Assembly (NCBI RefSeq): GCF_020171465.1
Contig: NZ_JAIUZR010000002.1
Coordinates: forward strand, 1-37,830
Length of the DNA stretch: 37,830 nt
From: Lutimonas saemankumensis
GTDB taxonomy: Bacteria; Bacteroidota; Bacteroidia; Flavobacteriales; Flavobacteriaceae
Direction of reading: 5' to 3'
Under the pieces are notes generated by a model that did no database searches, was not told the origin of the DNA, and worked only from the letters and a program-made list of their open reading frames with translations. Below are positions 5,286 through 37,023 of this stretch, one piece after another (the first letter of the stretch is position 1; every line of letters begins with the position of its first letter). Both the position numbers and the translations under genes were made by a program.

Positions 5286-5808
5286 CTAAAATCTGGATTT
5301 AATCAGTTGCTTCTATAATTCATGTTCTATTTTCAAAAATACAGAAAGAATTAGTAAAAACTGGATTAAATCGTCCAAAGTTATACTTAAATTGGGATTC
5401 AATCGTTATACTATTTTATAAATAATATATTTGACGAATTTAAAAAGTTTATTATAGTTTCCCCTGTTATTATATAGTCTTTTCTTAAAGTTGAAGTATT
5501 CTGATTGTCAGTTTAATAGAATCATTGAGCAATCAATTAAACATCAACTATCATAAAATTTCATATTCGACAACAGAGTTAGCCATAATTTGACTTTTTT
5601 GAGTCATAAGCAAGTAGGTTCCTTATACCTATCCTGTCATTATTGTGAGTTTTTCTCAAAATCAATTGGGATTGACCATGGCGAAGCCGTTTATATTTAT
5701 CACATATCTTAGCTTATTTAATAAAATAATTTAATGCTTTTTTTATTAAGTTTAAAAATCACTTTACTAAATTAGACAACAATATATTTTAATCAAAAGA
5801 ATTAATAA
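5286..5808. other. Non-coding divergent intergenic region upstream of the main operon
   Basis: 523 bases with no believable gene. It separates the leftward TupA-like gene from the rightward polysaccharide operon and so should hold both promoters. On the minus strand 5334-5341 reads TATTTTTG, an exact TAnnTTTG, about 50 bases upstream of the leftward start, but I see no well-spaced -33 TTTG partner. On the plus strand 5747-5754 reads TAAGTTTA, one mismatch from TAnnTTTG and about 55 bases upstream of the 5809 start. TTTG followed about 20 bases later by a TAnnTT match occurs at 5430 and 5589. Two short hairpins (gact/agtc near 5592, tgag/ctca near 5646) lack T-tracts. A long leader is possible but no known riboswitch is recognised. 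Confidence 0.5.
5334..5341 (-). promoter_or_regulatory. Possible Bacteroidota -7 element for the TupA-like gene
   Basis: The minus strand reads TATTTTTG, matching TAnnTTTG, 49 bases upstream of the start codon at 5285. No convincing -33 TTTG lies at the usual 19-21 base spacing, so this is a weak candidate in very AT-rich DNA where chance matches are common. Confidence 0.25.
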
Positions 5809-6780
5809 ATGAAAAACTTTGCACTTATCGGAGTCGCTGGCTATGTAGCTCACCGTCATCTTAGGGCCATAAAAGAAACAAATAATGATCTTTTGGTTGC
5901 CTTGGATAATTTTGATAGTGTTGGGATTATGGATAGTTTTTTCCCCAACGCATCTTTTTTTGTTGAATTTGAAAGGTTTGATAGGCACATTGAAAAATTG
6001 AGGCGTAAAAATATTGATTTGGATTTTATCAGTATTTGTACCCCGAACTATTTACATGATTCGCATATTCGAATGGCTTTAAGAAGTGGAGCAAACGCTA
6101 TTTGTGAAAAACCTTTAGTTCTCAATCCTTGGAATTTGGACGCATTAAAAAACATTGAAAATGAATATGATGGCAAAGTGAATACTATCTTGCAATTAAG
6201 ACTTCATCCGAGTATTATTAAGCTTAAAGAGAAGATATCTTTAGCATCTGATTCTAAAATTCATGATGTTGATTTGACATATTTAACTTCAAGAGGTAAT
6301 TGGTATTATACTTCCTGGAAAGGTGATATATCAAAATCTGGTGGAATAGCCTCAAATATAGGCATTCATTTCTACGATATGTTATCTTGGGTATTTGGAC
6401 CCGTGAAATCAAATATTGTTCATCTCCATACTCACGATAGAGCAGCTGGTTTTCTTGAATTTGAAAAGGCAAGAGTCAGATGGTTTCTTTCAATTAATGA
6501 TAAATTACTCCCTAAAGATATTCAAGAAAAAGGCCAAAGAACTTATAGGTCTATAACAGTAGACGGAAAGGAAATTGAATTTAGTGATGGCTTTTTCGAT
6601 CTACATACAAAAAGTTATGAAAAAATTCTTAGTGGAGAAGGTTTTGGAATTGAGGAAGCAAGACAATCAATAAATATTGTTCACCAAATCAGAAATTCTG
6701 AGACTCTTCCGCTTCAAGGAGATTTTCATCCTTTAGCAAAGTTTGATCTATCTCCACACCCTTTTCGAAATAAAAAATAA
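5809..6780 (+). CDS. wbpB: WbpB/WlbA-like UDP-GlcNAc-uronate 3-dehydrogenase (Gfo/Idh/MocA family)
   Basis: A 323-residue NAD-dependent oxidoreductase. The N-terminus has the Rossmann motif LIGVAGYVAHRHL, followed by ALDNFDSVGIMDSFFP and FEFERFDRHIEKLR, which I recognise as characteristic of WbpB/WlbA. The Gfo/Idh EKP motif is at residues 100-102, and GGIASNIGIHFYDML carries the conserved active-site His. Known: WbpB/WlbA oxidises C3 of UDP-N-acetylglucosaminuronic acid on the way to 2,3-diacetamido uronic acids, working with the aminotransferase WbpE/WlbC and the acetyltransferase WbpD/WlbB. Neither partner, nor a UDP-GlcNAc 6-dehydrogenase, is in this window, which is odd. It is the first gene of the long rightward run; the next gene starts 8 bases after its stop. 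Exact substrate is inferred. Confidence 0.82.
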   Translation: MKNFALIGVAGYVAHRHLRAIKETNNDLLVALDNFDSVGIMDSFFPNASFFVEFERFDRHIEKLRRKNIDLDFISICTPNYLHDSHIRMALRSGANAICEKPLVLNPWNLDALKNIENEYDGKVNTILQLRLHPSIIKLKEKISLASDSKIHDVDLTYLTSRGNWYYTSWKGDISKSGGIASNIGIHFYDMLSWVFGPVKSNIVHLHTHDRAAGFLEFEKARVRWFLSINDKLLPKDIQEKGQRTYRSITVDGKEIEFSDGFFDLHTKSYEKILSGEGFGIEEARQSINIVHQIRNSETLPLQGDFHPLAKFDLSPHPFRNKK

Positions 6781-28022: not shown

Positions 28023-28787
28023 ATGAATTGGGATTTTACCTTTAAAAAGTATGAAGAATTATTAAAAGTTTTAAATGATGATGGATATCAATTTCAAACT
28101 TTTGAGCAATTCATTAAAAATCCAAAGAAGAAAGTTGTGGTTTTAAGACATGACGTAGACAGAAGATCTGCACATTCATTGGATCTAGCAAAAGCTGAGA
28201 GTACAGTAAACGCGAAAGCATCATATTATTTTCGAATTGTACCTGAAAGTAATGTAAAAAATATTATCGAAAAAATAGCCGCTCTTGGCCATGAAATAGG
28301 TTATCATTACGAGGATTTAGGTGCGAGTAAAGGTAATTTTCAAAAGGCTTATGAAAGATATTTAAAGAATTTGGGTTATTTTAGGTCCTATTATCCGGTT
28401 TCAACAATTTGTATGCATGGAAGTCCGGAAAACAAAATTGATAATCGAGACATTTGGAAAAAATATAATTATAAAAAAAACGGAATTATTGCGGAACCTT
28501 ATTTTGATGTAAATTATGACGAGGTATTTTATATTACAGATGCTTCCCGATCATGGAACAATAGAAATGTAAGTGTTAGGGATAAAGTTGAAACAAAATA
28601 TGAGTTAGATGCCTCAAGTATTGATAAAATGATTTACCTTGTTAAAAACAATCTGATGCCGGATCAAATAATTATTAATACTCATCCACATAATTGGTCC
28701 AAATTTGGCTTGTTATGGATTTATATTCTAGTCTGGCAAAGCATGAAAAATGTGGTCAAAGCAATTCTCATTCGGATAAGAAAATAA
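28023..28787 (+). CDS. Polysaccharide deacetylase-like protein (NodB-fold, divergent)
   Basis: A 254-residue protein with a divergent NodB fold. VVVLRHDVDRRSAHSLD holds the Asp residues of motif 1 (RHDVD), ALGHEIGYHYEDLG holds the His of motif 2, and INTHPHNWSKFG near the C-terminus gives the final His. CMHGSPENKIDNRDIW is another conserved segment. Such proteins are frequently found in O-antigen and capsule loci, usually annotated only as hypothetical or deacetylase-like. No signal peptide; the C-terminal segment (FGLLWIYILVWQSMKNVV) is hydrophobic. It lies 3 bases before a second, more canonical deacetylase gene, so the two may act on the same intermediate. Confidence 0.78.
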   Translation: MNWDFTFKKYEELLKVLNDDGYQFQTFEQFIKNPKKKVVVLRHDVDRRSAHSLDLAKAESTVNAKASYYFRIVPESNVKNIIEKIAALGHEIGYHYEDLGASKGNFQKAYERYLKNLGYFRSYYPVSTICMHGSPENKIDNRDIWKKYNYKKNGIIAEPYFDVNYDEVFYITDASRSWNNRNVSVRDKVETKYELDASSIDKMIYLVKNNLMPDQIIINTHPHNWSKFGLLWIYILVWQSMKNVVKAILIRIRK

Positions 28788-32751: not shown

Positions 32752-32880
32752 AATGATGAAAATTATTCATACGGATCATAAAAAGATTGAAGTTTTAGCA
32801 AAATAAATGGAAATTCGATTTTTTTTCTTATTTTTACAAAATATTGTATTGTTAAGTTGAAATAATTTTATCAGCCCCTC

Positions 32881-33027
32881 ATGATAAATTATATTATAAA
32901 GAAAGGCTCACATCACTTCTCGAGTTTTTTATTTAGCAATTTGTTTTTATTTGGGCTGGTTGAATTGATTGAATTTTTAGTGTCTAAAAAAGTATCTAGA
33001 TCCACAAAAATGAGCTTAAAAAAATAA
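32881..33027 (+). CDS. Possible small membrane protein, 48 residues
   Basis: An open frame from ATG 32881 to TAA 33027, ending 5 bases before the sugar transferase start. The translation opens MINYIIKKGSHHFSS, has one hydrophobic stretch (FLFSNLFLFGLVELIEFLV) and ends with a basic tail. No family is recognised. Support is only its length, its hydrophobic helix and the tight spacing to the next gene; in DNA this rich in A and T such frames arise by chance, so it may simply be leader sequence of the sugar transferase transcript. Confidence 0.3.
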   Translation: MINYIIKKGSHHFSSFLFSNLFLFGLVELIEFLVSKKVSRSTKMSLKK

Positions 33028-33032
33028 TTGCT

Positions 33033-34535
33033 ATGGTAACAAAATTACAAACACAAAACTTTATCGGAGATTTGCGGCAGAAGATTCTCAGGCAAAATCT
33101 AGTTTATCCGAAACCAAAAAATCGATTTGATGAAAAGGTGTTTTCAAGGAAAGAGAAATTGAGAATCATCGTCGAAGGTCAATCAAATCAATTATCAATT
33201 GAGGAAATTTGCTTTAGAGAAAATATCGACACTCAAGTTTTTTCGAAATGGACAAATGAATTTCTTAGTGGTGAATACGATCAGAATACTGATTCAGGAA
33301 CTGATCATGACGTATTATTTACAAATGAAAGAAAATATCAAATTGTAATCGAAGGGCAAACTGGTATTTCCAGTATCGCAAAAATATGTAATCGGGAGGG
33401 AATTTCTCATGAAACTTTTTTGGGGTGGTGCAAGGAATTTACTGAGTTAAGAAAGAGTCAAATAGAAAATGTCAGGAACAATAGATATTTATGGACAAGA
33501 AATAAGGATCTCACTGTTTCAAAATTAGGGTCAACAGAAATTTTTGATTATCTATCTCTTTATTTAAATTTTTATGATGATAAATTAACTATAATTTCTG
33601 ATGTTGAGGAGTTGTCAAATTATAATGAACAATCTAGAAATCAGATAATAGGATCAAAGAAAGTTAACGATATTAGATTTGTGAATAAATACTTTGAATG
33701 TATTAATTCAAAACTGATGGATGATGGAATATTTGTAGGATGTGTTGAGACTTTTCAAGCTAGAAGAAGAAAGATGAGAGTTAACAGAATTCCTATAATT
33801 AGTGATATTTATTTTGGGGTAGAGTTTATCTTTAAAAGAATTTTACCAAAAGTTTCGTTTACGAAGAGATTTTATTTTGATTTTACAAAAGGCAGTGATA
33901 GACTTTTGTCCAAAGCGGAAAGCTTAGGAAGATTGGTGAGTTGCGGCTTTGATATAATGGATTTTAAATCCATTGATGGATTATTGTATTTCGTTGTTAA
34001 AAAGAAGAGAGAACCTGAATTTAATGAAAGTCCTAGCTACGGTCCTATTTATAGAATGCCTAGATTAGGAAAGCATGGCAAGATAATTTATGTATATAAA
34101 TTTAGAACCATGCATCCTTATAGTGAATATTTACAGGATTTTTTGGTAAGTGCTTATGGTTATTCAAGTTCAGGTAAACCTGCTAATGATTTTAGAATCC
34201 CAAAGTGGGGAAGGTTTTTAAGACGCTTTTGGCTTGATGAACTCCCACAGTTGATTAATGTTGTTAAAGGAGATATGAAATTAGTGGGAATAAGACCTGT
34301 ATCAAAAAGGTATTTTCAAGATATTCCTTCAGAAATGAAAAAGCTAAGACTTACTCAGAAGCCAGGGTGTATTCCTCCATACGTAGCATTGAATCGTGAT
34401 GGGAATGTAATGAGTGTTTTACAAGCTGAAAGGGAATATCTGCAAGAAAAAATTCGAAATCCATATTTCACTGATATTAGGTATTTTTTCAAGGCCTTAA
34501 TTAGTATTATTTTTTTTCATAAAAGGAGTGCTTAA
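33033..34535 (+). CDS. Initiating sugar transferase with two transposase-like HTH repeats at the N-terminus
   Basis: A 500-residue protein. The C-terminal half (about 330-425) is a bacterial sugar transferase (polyprenol-phosphate hexose-1-phosphate transferase): GPIYRMPRLGKHGKII, VYKFRTMHPYSEYLQ, the catalytic Asp-Glu in WLDELPQLINVVKGD (402-403) and KLVGIRPVSKRYF. The middle (about 160-325, with IFVGCVET and SKAESLGRLVSCGFDIMD) matches a Bacteroidota subtype that lacks the usual N-terminal membrane spans. Unusual are two tandem helix-turn-helix repeats at 37-79 and 98-140: EKLRIIVEGQ...IEEICFRENIDTQVFSKW and RKYQIVIEGQ...IAKICNREGISHETFLGW, which look like IS3-family transposase OrfA HTH domains. 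It should start repeat-unit synthesis on undecaprenyl phosphate; the HTH part could bind DNA, perhaps for self-regulation (inference). A 281-base gap separates it from the ASST-like gene, so it may have its own promoter. Confidence 0.87.
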   Translation: MVTKLQTQNFIGDLRQKILRQNLVYPKPKNRFDEKVFSRKEKLRIIVEGQSNQLSIEEICFRENIDTQVFSKWTNEFLSGEYDQNTDSGTDHDVLFTNERKYQIVIEGQTGISSIAKICNREGISHETFLGWCKEFTELRKSQIENVRNNRYLWTRNKDLTVSKLGSTEIFDYLSLYLNFYDDKLTIISDVEELSNYNEQSRNQIIGSKKVNDIRFVNKYFECINSKLMDDGIFVGCVETFQARRRKMRVNRIPIISDIYFGVEFIFKRILPKVSFTKRFYFDFTKGSDRLLSKAESLGRLVSCGFDIMDFKSIDGLLYFVVKKKREPEFNESPSYGPIYRMPRLGKHGKIIYVYKFRTMHPYSEYLQDFLVSAYGYSSSGKPANDFRIPKWGRFLRRFWLDELPQLINVVKGDMKLVGIRPVSKRYFQDIPSEMKKLRLTQKPGCIPPYVALNRDGNVMSVLQAEREYLQEKIRNPYFTDIRYFFKALISIIFFHKRSA

Positions 34536-34626: not shown

Positions 34627-37023
34627 ATGCATTTGAATAAATCGGAAAAGATTTTAGAAGATAATCTGGATGACTCAATTAATATGAAGGAAATATTCGA
34701 AAAATATTTCAAACATATTAAATGGTTTGTTTTCAGTGTATTATTATTTATTTCATTGGCCTTTATTAAAATTAGAAGTGAAATTCCCCAATATAAGGTA
34801 AGTGGTGTAATTCTCATTAAAGAAAATGAAAAAGGATCCTCAATAGGGAATTTAGAGTCTTTTGAAAATTTAGGGCTTTTCGGTTCTGAGACGAATAGAT
34901 TGGAAAATGAGATCCAAATTTTGAAATCTCGCAGGCTAATGACCAAGGTGGTCAAGGAACTAGAGTTTAATATAAATTATTTTATTGAGGATTCTCCATA
35001 TGATAAAGAATATTATCCAAATTTCCCGATAACCTTCGATTTTGTAGGAGATACCTTAATAGGTGATGATTTTTCCACTCTTTTTAAAATTAGAATTCTT
35101 TCGGATACTCGATTTCTATTTTTAAATGCAGAGGACGCTTCATATGGCTCAAAGGCATTTGGAGAAACCTTTGTTGCAGAATTAGGAAATGAAGAGCGTT
35201 CGATTCGAAAGGATCTTGTGGTTAACTTGAATCCTAATTTTGGTAGATCACTTGTAGGTGAAACTGTGATAATTAGCGTTTACCCAGTTGATCGAGTAGT
35301 TAGTAGTTATATGAAGAGGTTGGAGATAGAACCTATTAATGAGAGGATGTCCAAGGTGTTAATATTATCCTTAAATGAAAGTGTAAAGCAAAAAGGAATT
35401 TCTCTAATTAATAATTTGATAGAGCAATACAATGCTGATGGTATAACCGACAAGAATCTTGTCGCACAAAATACGACAGATTTTCTGGATCTTAGAATAG
35501 GTTTAATAGAAACAGAGTTAGCCGCTATCGAACTTACTGCAGAACAATTTCGAACAAAAAATAAAATGATTGATGTGAATACCGGGTCCAGTATTTATCT
35601 TCATTCATCCTCTGCAAATGAGTCGGAATTAGTTGATTCCAATACTCAGATTCAATTAGTTAATCTCATGATTGACGAAGTAGGTTCAATTCGCACAGGT
35701 GAATTGTTGCCAGGAAACGTTGGGATAGCGGATCCGACAATTATAAGCATGATCACCCAATATAATAATTTGGTTTTACAAAGGAACAGAATATTAAAGA
35801 GTTCAAGTGAAATAAATCCAATAATTATTAATATTGATTCGCAGTTGGAAAATTACAAAAGTAATTTAAGTAATAGTTTAAATAATCAAAAATCGTCACT
35901 TGAAATCAAGGTTGGTACGTTAACTACTCAAAGTAGTAAAATTAGCTCAAGAATAGCTTCAGTTCCTAAGAATGAAAGAGAGTTTAAAGATATTGTAAGG
36001 CAACAGGAGACAAAAAATGCTCTATATCTCTTTTTACTTCAAAAGCGAGAAGAGTCGGTACTTTCTAATGCTGTTAATGTTGATAAAGCCAAGGTGATTG
36101 ATAATGCCTACAGTAAACCTGGGAAAATATCACCGAAGAAATCAACAAATCTACTGGGAGCTATTATTTTAGGAATTTTAGTGCCATTTATCGTGATCTA
36201 TGTTCGGGATCTCCTAGACACTAAGGTTCATGATGAGAAAGATCTGAGGAAAATGGGAATACCATTTATAGGAGATGTTCCCTTTTCAAAGAATAAAGGA
36301 GATTTGTTGATAACAAATAATGATACTTCGAATATAGCAGAGGCCTTTAGGTATTTAAGAACAAATATTGGTTTTATGCTAGATAGAAAGGAATGGGGAA
36401 AGACTATTCTTTTTACATCTACTCAAAGCGGTGAAGGAAAAACATTCGCAGCATTAAATTTGGCATCCTCATTGGCAATTTCTGGAAAAAAAACATTACT
36501 CATAGCAATGGATCTCAGAGTTCCCAAGATAGCAAAGTACATGGACGTGGACGAAGTTAAAGGTGTTAGTAATTTCATAAAAGATAATGAATTAAGGGTT
36601 CGAGATATAATTAATAAGCATGCTGAAATAGAAAACCTTAGTTTGATATTATCAGGAGACATTCCTCCGAATCCTGTTGAACTTCTTATGAGTAAAAGAG
36701 TAGATGAGATTTTTGAAGAAGTTAAAAATGATTATGAATTTATTATCGTAGACAGTGCACCGGTAGGTATGGTAACAGATACATTTCAAATAAGTAGATT
36801 TGCCGAATTGACAGTTTATGTGATTAAGGCGAATTTTCTCGATAAGAGAATGCTTCATATCCCTGATAAATTAAATCGACAGAATAAATTGTCAAATATG
36901 TGTTTGCTACTTAATGGTACGGATCATTCGAAAGGAACATACGGTTATGGTTATGGTTATGGAGAAAAAAAGAAAAAGAGATTCTTCAAGAATTTGTTTT
37001 CGAGAAAAGCAGCAACCCTTTAA
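34627..37023 (+). CDS. wzc: Wzc-type polysaccharide co-polymerase and tyrosine autokinase
   Basis: A 798-residue inner-membrane protein. A Wzz domain spans about residues 22-130, with the first membrane helix at 32-49 (KWFVFSVLLFISLAFIKI). A periplasmic coiled-coil region (about 270-490) follows, then the second helix at 509-528 (LLGAIILGILVPFIVIYV). The C-terminal BY-kinase domain has Walker A GEGKT at 602-606, Walker A' LLIAMDLRVPK (Asp629) and Walker B FIIVDSAPVGM (Asp709). The tail carries alternating Tyr at 772, 774, 776 and 778 (GTYGYGYGYGE), the autophosphorylation cluster, and a basic end. It would control chain length and export together with Wzx/Wzy. No Wza outer-membrane exporter gene is adjacent, although wza usually accompanies wzc; it must be elsewhere or be replaced. 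Confidence 0.95.
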   Translation: MHLNKSEKILEDNLDDSINMKEIFEKYFKHIKWFVFSVLLFISLAFIKIRSEIPQYKVSGVILIKENEKGSSIGNLESFENLGLFGSETNRLENEIQILKSRRLMTKVVKELEFNINYFIEDSPYDKEYYPNFPITFDFVGDTLIGDDFSTLFKIRILSDTRFLFLNAEDASYGSKAFGETFVAELGNEERSIRKDLVVNLNPNFGRSLVGETVIISVYPVDRVVSSYMKRLEIEPINERMSKVLILSLNESVKQKGISLINNLIEQYNADGITDKNLVAQNTTDFLDLRIGLIETELAAIELTAEQFRTKNKMIDVNTGSSIYLHSSSANESELVDSNTQIQLVNLMIDEVGSIRTGELLPGNVGIADPTIISMITQYNNLVLQRNRILKSSSEINPIIINIDSQLENYKSNLSNSLNNQKSSLEIKVGTLTTQSSKISSRIASVPKNEREFKDIVRQQETKNALYLFLLQKREESVLSNAVNVDKAKVIDNAYSKPGKISPKKSTNLLGAIILGILVPFIVIYVRDLLDTKVHDEKDLRKMGIPFIGDVPFSKNKGDLLITNNDTSNIAEAFRYLRTNIGFMLDRKEWGKTILFTSTQSGEGKTFAALNLASSLAISGKKTLLIAMDLRVPKIAKYMDVDEVKGVSNFIKDNELRVRDIINKHAEIENLSLILSGDIPPNPVELLMSKRVDEIFEEVKNDYEFIIVDSAPVGMVTDTFQISRFAELTVYVIKANFLDKRMLHIPDKLNRQNKLSNMCLLLNGTDHSKGTYGYGYGYGEKKKKRFFKNLFSRKAATL
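36940..36963 (+). repeat. Hexanucleotide tandem repeat encoding the Tyr-Gly tail of Wzc
   Basis: Four tandem copies of a six-base unit, tacggt then tatggt, tatggt and tatgga, encode the YGYGYGYG tail. Gain or loss of a unit would change the number of phosphorylatable Tyr residues without shifting the frame. Confidence 0.75.

Follow-up and report, generated by a model that had tools for sequence, protein, structure and literature searches.

Tandem IS3 OrfA-like helix-turn-helix repeats at the N-terminus of a putative sugar-1-phosphate transferase in a glycan locus of Lutimonas saemankumensis

The glycan locus and its transferase

The stretch of DNA analysed here (the window, 37,830 nucleotides) is a glycan locus, with genes for a Wzx-like flippase, a Wzc-like protein, glycosyltransferases, sulfotransferases and deacetylases, and with a weak Wzy match that stays under its cut-off. 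It encodes a protein (HTH-PGT) in which two helix-turn-helix (HTH) domains are followed by a methyltransferase-like domain and then by a sugar-transferase domain (Table 1). The Wzc-like gene lies downstream of the HTH-PGT gene in six of seven HTH-PGT loci, G119 being the exception, and a homologue of the 254-aa neighbour is found upstream in five of the six other loci; the contig of G663 begins too close to tell.

Table 1. Coordinates of the features discussed, in positions of the window
Feature	Positions	Strand	Basis or remark
HTH-HTH-(methyltransferase-like)-PGT protein	33033..34535	+	500 aa ORF
HTH1, residues 35-82	33135..33278	+	Pfam PF01527 best stretch 37-81; alignment A5
HTH2, residues 94-141	33312..33455	+	Pfam, NCBIfam, alignment A5
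Class I methyltransferase-like fold, residues 163-327	33519..34013	+	Predicted model
Sugar-transferase (PF02397) catalytic part, residues 336-497	34038..34523	+	Pfam and alignment
Wzc-like chain-length / BY-kinase-like gene	34627..37023	+	Pfam Wzz, GNVR, AAA_31
Conserved 254-aa neighbour	28023..28787	+	No Pfam family at 0.001
Leader element TTTTATC-NN-CCCCTCAT	32861..32892	+	Upstream of HTH-PGT gene
TAnnTTTA promoter-like box	32829..32836	+	~40 nt upstream of CCCCT; inferred from sequence
Second leader-like layout TATATTTG-AAAAAG-CCCCT	5426..5478	+	Before first gene (5809) of main operon

A preliminary description of this DNA had placed the two repeats at positions 33141-33452, which correspond exactly to residues 37-140 of the ORF 33033-34535. 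It had also set the start of this transferase subtype near residue 160, with about 150 residues added in front, and both statements agree with the relative L009, which begins at query residue 158.

The PF02397 match covers residues 338-491 (E 7.7e-27) and starts at profile position 35; in eight relatives it starts at positions 32-36. Residues D402-E403, which we take to be the catalytic dyad, are invariant in 14 of 14 sequences. The re-entrant membrane helix presumably lies within the first ~34 profile positions, which are unmatched here, and judged by the Pfam span and this placement it is absent from the window protein. Solved WbaP-type chains were matched only from residues 313-366, and PglC-type chains from 45-46. 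HTH-PGT thus shares with the monotopic phosphoglycosyl transferases PglC, WbaP and EpsZ a PF02397 catalytic part with its D-E pair, but its match begins after the re-entrant-helix part, its middle domain is methyltransferase-like, and HTHs stand at its N-terminus instead of transmembrane helices. Neither the four-helix membrane bundle nor PF13727 was found in it, nor a strongly hydrophobic segment (best 19-residue hydrophobicity, 1.26), and it may have another kind of anchor.

The absence of the usual re-entrant helix, with a methyltransferase-like domain in its stead, extends to the transferase family, and the label 'initiating' is for this reason only putative. In L009 (5998-8446) and L017 the gene for such a transferase adjoins a second PF02397-like gene, which has hydrophobic segments and looks canonical by eye, so that in these two loci initiation may not fall to the family member. 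In L157 the family is present as two tandem copies, the second only 247 aa long.

In a low-confidence predicted model (mean pLDDT 49.5), residues 163-327 resemble class I methyltransferases; no glycine-rich SAM motif was seen by eye in alignment A1. A further structure prediction was also of low confidence (mean pLDDT 36.6), and the assignment of the HTH fold therefore rests on sequence profiles. A search of PDB sequences with the N-terminus gave no matches, and one with profile A5 gave a single match (E 0.19).

Origin and distribution of the HTH pair

The tandem repeat that had been noted from the sequence is real: the two HTH units align gap-free with a BLOSUM62 score of 91, as compared to a mean of 23.6 (sd 4.9) in a shuffle control in which none of 5000 shuffles reached 91. 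The likeness to transposase HTHs was also upheld. HTH_Tnp_1 (PF01527) matched the whole protein with E 1.6e-7 and 31.9 bits, above the curated cut-off of 24.1, and residues 1-166 alone in two stretches with E 5.9e-9; in a six-frame search of the genome the repeats scored 21.1 and 17.6 bits, each singly under the cut-off. Among the six other HTH-bearing proteins, those of G661, G664 and G663 passed, G253 (22.0) and G119 (21.3) fell just under, and G776 was unlisted at E 0.01.

With NCBIfam, the window protein matched IS66 TnpA (best), IS3, IS481 and SciP models, all under their own cut-offs. Comparison with OrfA of nine elements by hhalign gave a probability of 99.5, which bears out the IS3 OrfA-like type that had been proposed. 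The IS3 model was the best match of OrfA in the four of these nine elements that were checked with NCBIfam, and the adjacent OrfB passed the IS3-family cut-off in all three nearest elements tested; IS481 had a better E-value there, yet stayed under its own cut-off. SciP (DUF1153), a regulator that inhibits CtrA, likewise has a small HTH of this broad kind, but its model (9.6e-3 with the whole protein, 3.5e-4 with the N-terminus) and that of DUF1153 (0.18 and 0.007) remained below their curated cut-offs.

The fused HTHs share the fold-core pattern of IS3-family OrfA. They differ from OrfA in being tandem, in sitting on an enzyme, in having no OrfB beside them (the neighbours are an ASST-like and the Wzc-like gene) and in the loss of several basic positions, and the OrfA tail with its leucine-zipper region was not seen in the HTH-PGT protein. 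A tree built from 48-residue units placed HTH1 and HTH2 as sister clades (joint support 0.91) beside the IS3 OrfA units and grouped the single HTH of G776 with the HTH2 clade (0.99); the placement of the single HTH of G119 was unreliable. This topology fits one capture of an HTH followed by its duplication, with the reservation that units so short give weak trees.

The same domain order was sought in other genomes, as the preliminary description had proposed, and the two-HTH form was found in five of 22 genomes of the genus (two of the six with completeness of 90% or more and contamination of 5% or less). The homologues in the four other genus genomes span residues 1-500, 1-500, 2-500 and 8-500. 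One-HTH forms occur outside the genus, in G119 (another genus) and G776 (another family). At the level of the family, the protein was found in six of 299 genomes at E 1e-20, with HTHs in G000, G253 and G119; the search of the order gave eight of 395 genomes, with HTHs in G000 and G119; and a profile search of the phylum gave the transferase family in 26 of 395 genomes at E 1e-40, with HTHs in G000, G119 and G776. Further HTH matches in long frames in L023 and L084-L086 belonged to a glycosyltransferase and to VWA-like proteins and were taken as chance; long-frame matches outside these four were in G149, G766, G685, G897, G892 and G894.

We rejected the idea that the HTHs are a standard part of the subtype: 35 other loci gave no match to HTH profile A5 (12 tested at E 1 and 23 at E 0.01, the latter without L172, a 149-aa fragment, and L174, which repeats the contig of L157). 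Ten of these 35 HTH-less loci have transmembrane-like segments in the N-terminal slot, namely L006 and L008, with four hydrophobic segments in front of the transferase, and another eight, whose frames measure 648-684 aa and contain three to eight such segments; the remaining loci have none at the same threshold. The slot is thus variable, holding HTHs, transmembrane-like segments or nothing, and HTHs are one of its fillings.

Two trivial origins were also discarded. A frameshift or assembly artefact is at odds with the five genomes of the genus in which the frame is open (nearly) throughout, and a recent IS insertion with the six-frame search of the own genome, in which no second HTH_Tnp_1 match was found at E 0.1. 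Could the pair be a neutral leftover of an older event, kept by chance? OrfA-like sequences are common mobile parts, and the two HTHs are joined by a linker with hardly any conservation (mean identity 0.05 across five species). However, HTH1 retains a mean identity of 0.46 and HTH2, the best-conserved piece of the added N-terminus, 0.51 in the five orthologues, and these values, with the open frames and the lack of another HTH_Tnp_1 match, make a chance relic very improbable.

The CCCCT leader element

The HTH-PGT gene is preceded by a leader that can form a 7-bp stem around a CCCCT loop. The exact TTTTATNNNCCCCTCAT site of this leader occurs once in the own genome; with up to two mismatches the element had 55 matches versus 42 for the reversed control, so that only the exact element is distinctive. 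The promoter-like box preceding it is to be viewed beside the -7 box of Bacteroidota, TAnnTTTG. The two intergenic regions singled out in the preliminary description, 5286-5808 and 32752-33032, both hold a promoter-like box and then CCCCT, and the CCCCT copy of the latter is conserved in front of orthologues; this speaks in part for the regulatory role raised there. The layout at 5426 is the single regex match in the window, and five of 100 window shuffles contain one; under covariance model R1 it is second best in the window (18.5 bits, E 0.23), and it is weak as a hairpin.

CCCCT is found upstream of all seven HTH-bearing genes versus two of 36 HTH-less ones. The HTH-less counts are 2/12 within 400 nt and 0/24 (ORFs of 23 loci) within 300 nt, and the 12 include L006, with 92 nt only, and L018 and L020, where the assumed starts are not true start codons. 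The complete layout (promoter-like box, AAAAAG, CCCCT) lies ahead of all HTH-PGT genes but the window's own (six of seven), where AAAAAG is missing; five were matched at strict spacing and G119 only at looser spacing, with a regex composed after the leaders were seen and later loosened. In other loci of G+C <=40%, 349,302 bases in all, the loose regex gave two matches. In G253 the glycan locus of the HTH-PGT gene has a second, similar leader (L087:12594-12658), ahead of a 1064-aa gene, and in G776 a further layout (L180:1533) lies on the contig of the HTH-PGT gene, outside any ORF >150 aa.

This distribution raises the possibility that HTH-PGT is a trigger enzyme, in which the HTH pair would bind nucleic acid and regulate its own locus through the CCCCT leaders of its own gene and of the main operon. 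We consider this a serious alternative, though one that is less likely than not. Apart from the counts above, the exact element is unique in the genome and has a similar layout before the main operon and further copies in G253 and G776; the residues of the HTH fold are kept, and the window protein has no strongly hydrophobic segment. The sole R1 match at E 1 in the own genome is the HTH-PGT leader, itself a member of the training set of ten hairpins, which also included that of L017. But five of the seven genes come from one genus and that of G776 may be a lateral copy, leaving few independent events, and the association of leader and HTHs may largely reflect descent.

The hairpin also counts against such regulation. 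It is present in L017, which has no HTH, while G119 has the layout and no fold in a 42-nt window; in G776 the CCCCT of the first leader copy falls outside the loop. Windows of 42 nt had z < -2.3 in three of the seven first leader copies, and two longer leader folds were no stabler than shuffles (z 0.28 for the 5426 leader and -0.13), the proposed stem of the window leader being absent from the minimum-energy structure of the longer fold. R1 itself is not specific, since 84 of 199 family genomes contain some match at E 1; its next matches (L115-L120, six read) are not before recognised glycan genes, and eight further stretches of the HTH-PGT contigs (83,845 bases) gave none. Rfam gave no matches in the window at gathering thresholds. 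The leader is thus better supported as a sequence element than as a hairpin.

A different factor might read the leader, with the HTHs uninvolved, for example a NusG paralogue on the model of UpxY or RfaH, or else the ribosome acting on a leader peptide. The own genome does encode another NusG-type protein, with neighbours that resemble a further glycan locus, and this reading would account for the hairpin of L017 and for the in-frame xCC-CCT codons that recur, as read by eye, in several leaders. The paralogue lies outside the present locus, however, its gene has no CCCCT in the 140 nt before it, and several leaders, again by eye, lack a start codon in the frame that they share; we regard this reading as improbable. 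At L146:7934-8473 and 6500-6531 the NusG paralogue is next to UDP-sugar dehydrogenase-like and Wza-like genes, named by eye, and CCCCTC directly precedes the start of the Wza-like gene.

Residues of the fused HTHs and their candidate role

Fold-core columns C26, E29, F36 and W39 are invariant in all 12 fused units, with F43 retained in 11 of them. The mean net charge of the 48-residue unit was -0.58 in the 12 fused units versus +2.14 in 22 IS units (p 9e-4) and +1.45 in the 11 nearest IS units (p 0.01), p-values that overstate independence, as the compared units are related. At columns 17, 38 and 41, K or R is found in 2, 2 and 5 of the 12 fused units versus 11 of 11 nearest IS units at each. 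Several basic positions of OrfA are thus mostly lost, which argues against plain OrfA-like recognition of DNA and against the trigger-enzyme alternative, although all 12 fused units are basic at columns 8 and 28, which counts against a simple loss of DNA binding. In IS2, R50, right after the conserved W49, is a proposed DNA contact whose mutation weakens binding (PMC3219604). The matching column is basic in one of 12 fused and none of the 11 nearest IS units and does not discriminate, because the latter lack a basic residue as well. Taken together, the fused HTHs lean towards a changed role.

The explanation that we favour, tentatively and at a little short of even confidence, is that the pair is a domesticated docking or dimerisation module. 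An HTH of the IS3-family OrfA type would have become the N-terminal module of a sugar-1-phosphate transferase by capture and would later have been duplicated. The enzyme that received it is a member of a family in Bacteroidota that has a methyltransferase-like domain and lacks the re-entrant helix, and in which the N-terminal slot is otherwise empty or transmembrane-like. The pair would serve mainly in protein contact, either dimerisation or docking to a glycan-assembly partner, for which the neighbouring Wzc-like protein is a candidate, and would set where or when the enzyme acts instead of working as a classical transcription factor. Among the points for protein contact are the transmembrane-like segments that other members hold in the same slot. 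WbaP is a functional homodimer and the activity of EpsZ is raised by a bound regulator (PMC12802240; PMC10942596). EpsW-EpsZ offers a parallel, being a regulatory module that acts on a phosphoglycosyl transferase (PMC12802240), but there the regulator is a separate receiver protein and not a fused HTH.

The lost charge slightly favours docking or dimerisation, and the leader favours autoregulation; a role with nucleic acid fits the CCCCT leader at least as well as docking does. That the transferase should also be a nucleic-acid-binding regulator, with domesticated, duplicated HTHs reading the CCCCT leaders of both operons, is in our judgement less likely than not.

As a sequence finding, the HTH-transferase fusion is sound and unusual; the order of the domains, the kinship of the HTHs with OrfA, the fact that several species have kept them and the loss of several OrfA-type basic residues can be taken as shown. 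No publication describing an HTH on a phosphoglycosyl transferase was recognised in the literature searched, which covered few subscription journals. The lipid carrier used by phosphoglycosyl transferases is in limited supply, and the tuning of that step is described as an open question (PMC12802240). A transposase-derived HTH pair on such an enzyme would, if confirmed, represent a new mode of control, by protein contact or by the reading of its own leaders, and in the latter case the expression of the pathway would be tied to the occupancy of one key enzyme. The family is also an instance of a sugar transferase that has no re-entrant helix and whose N-terminal modules are exchangeable.
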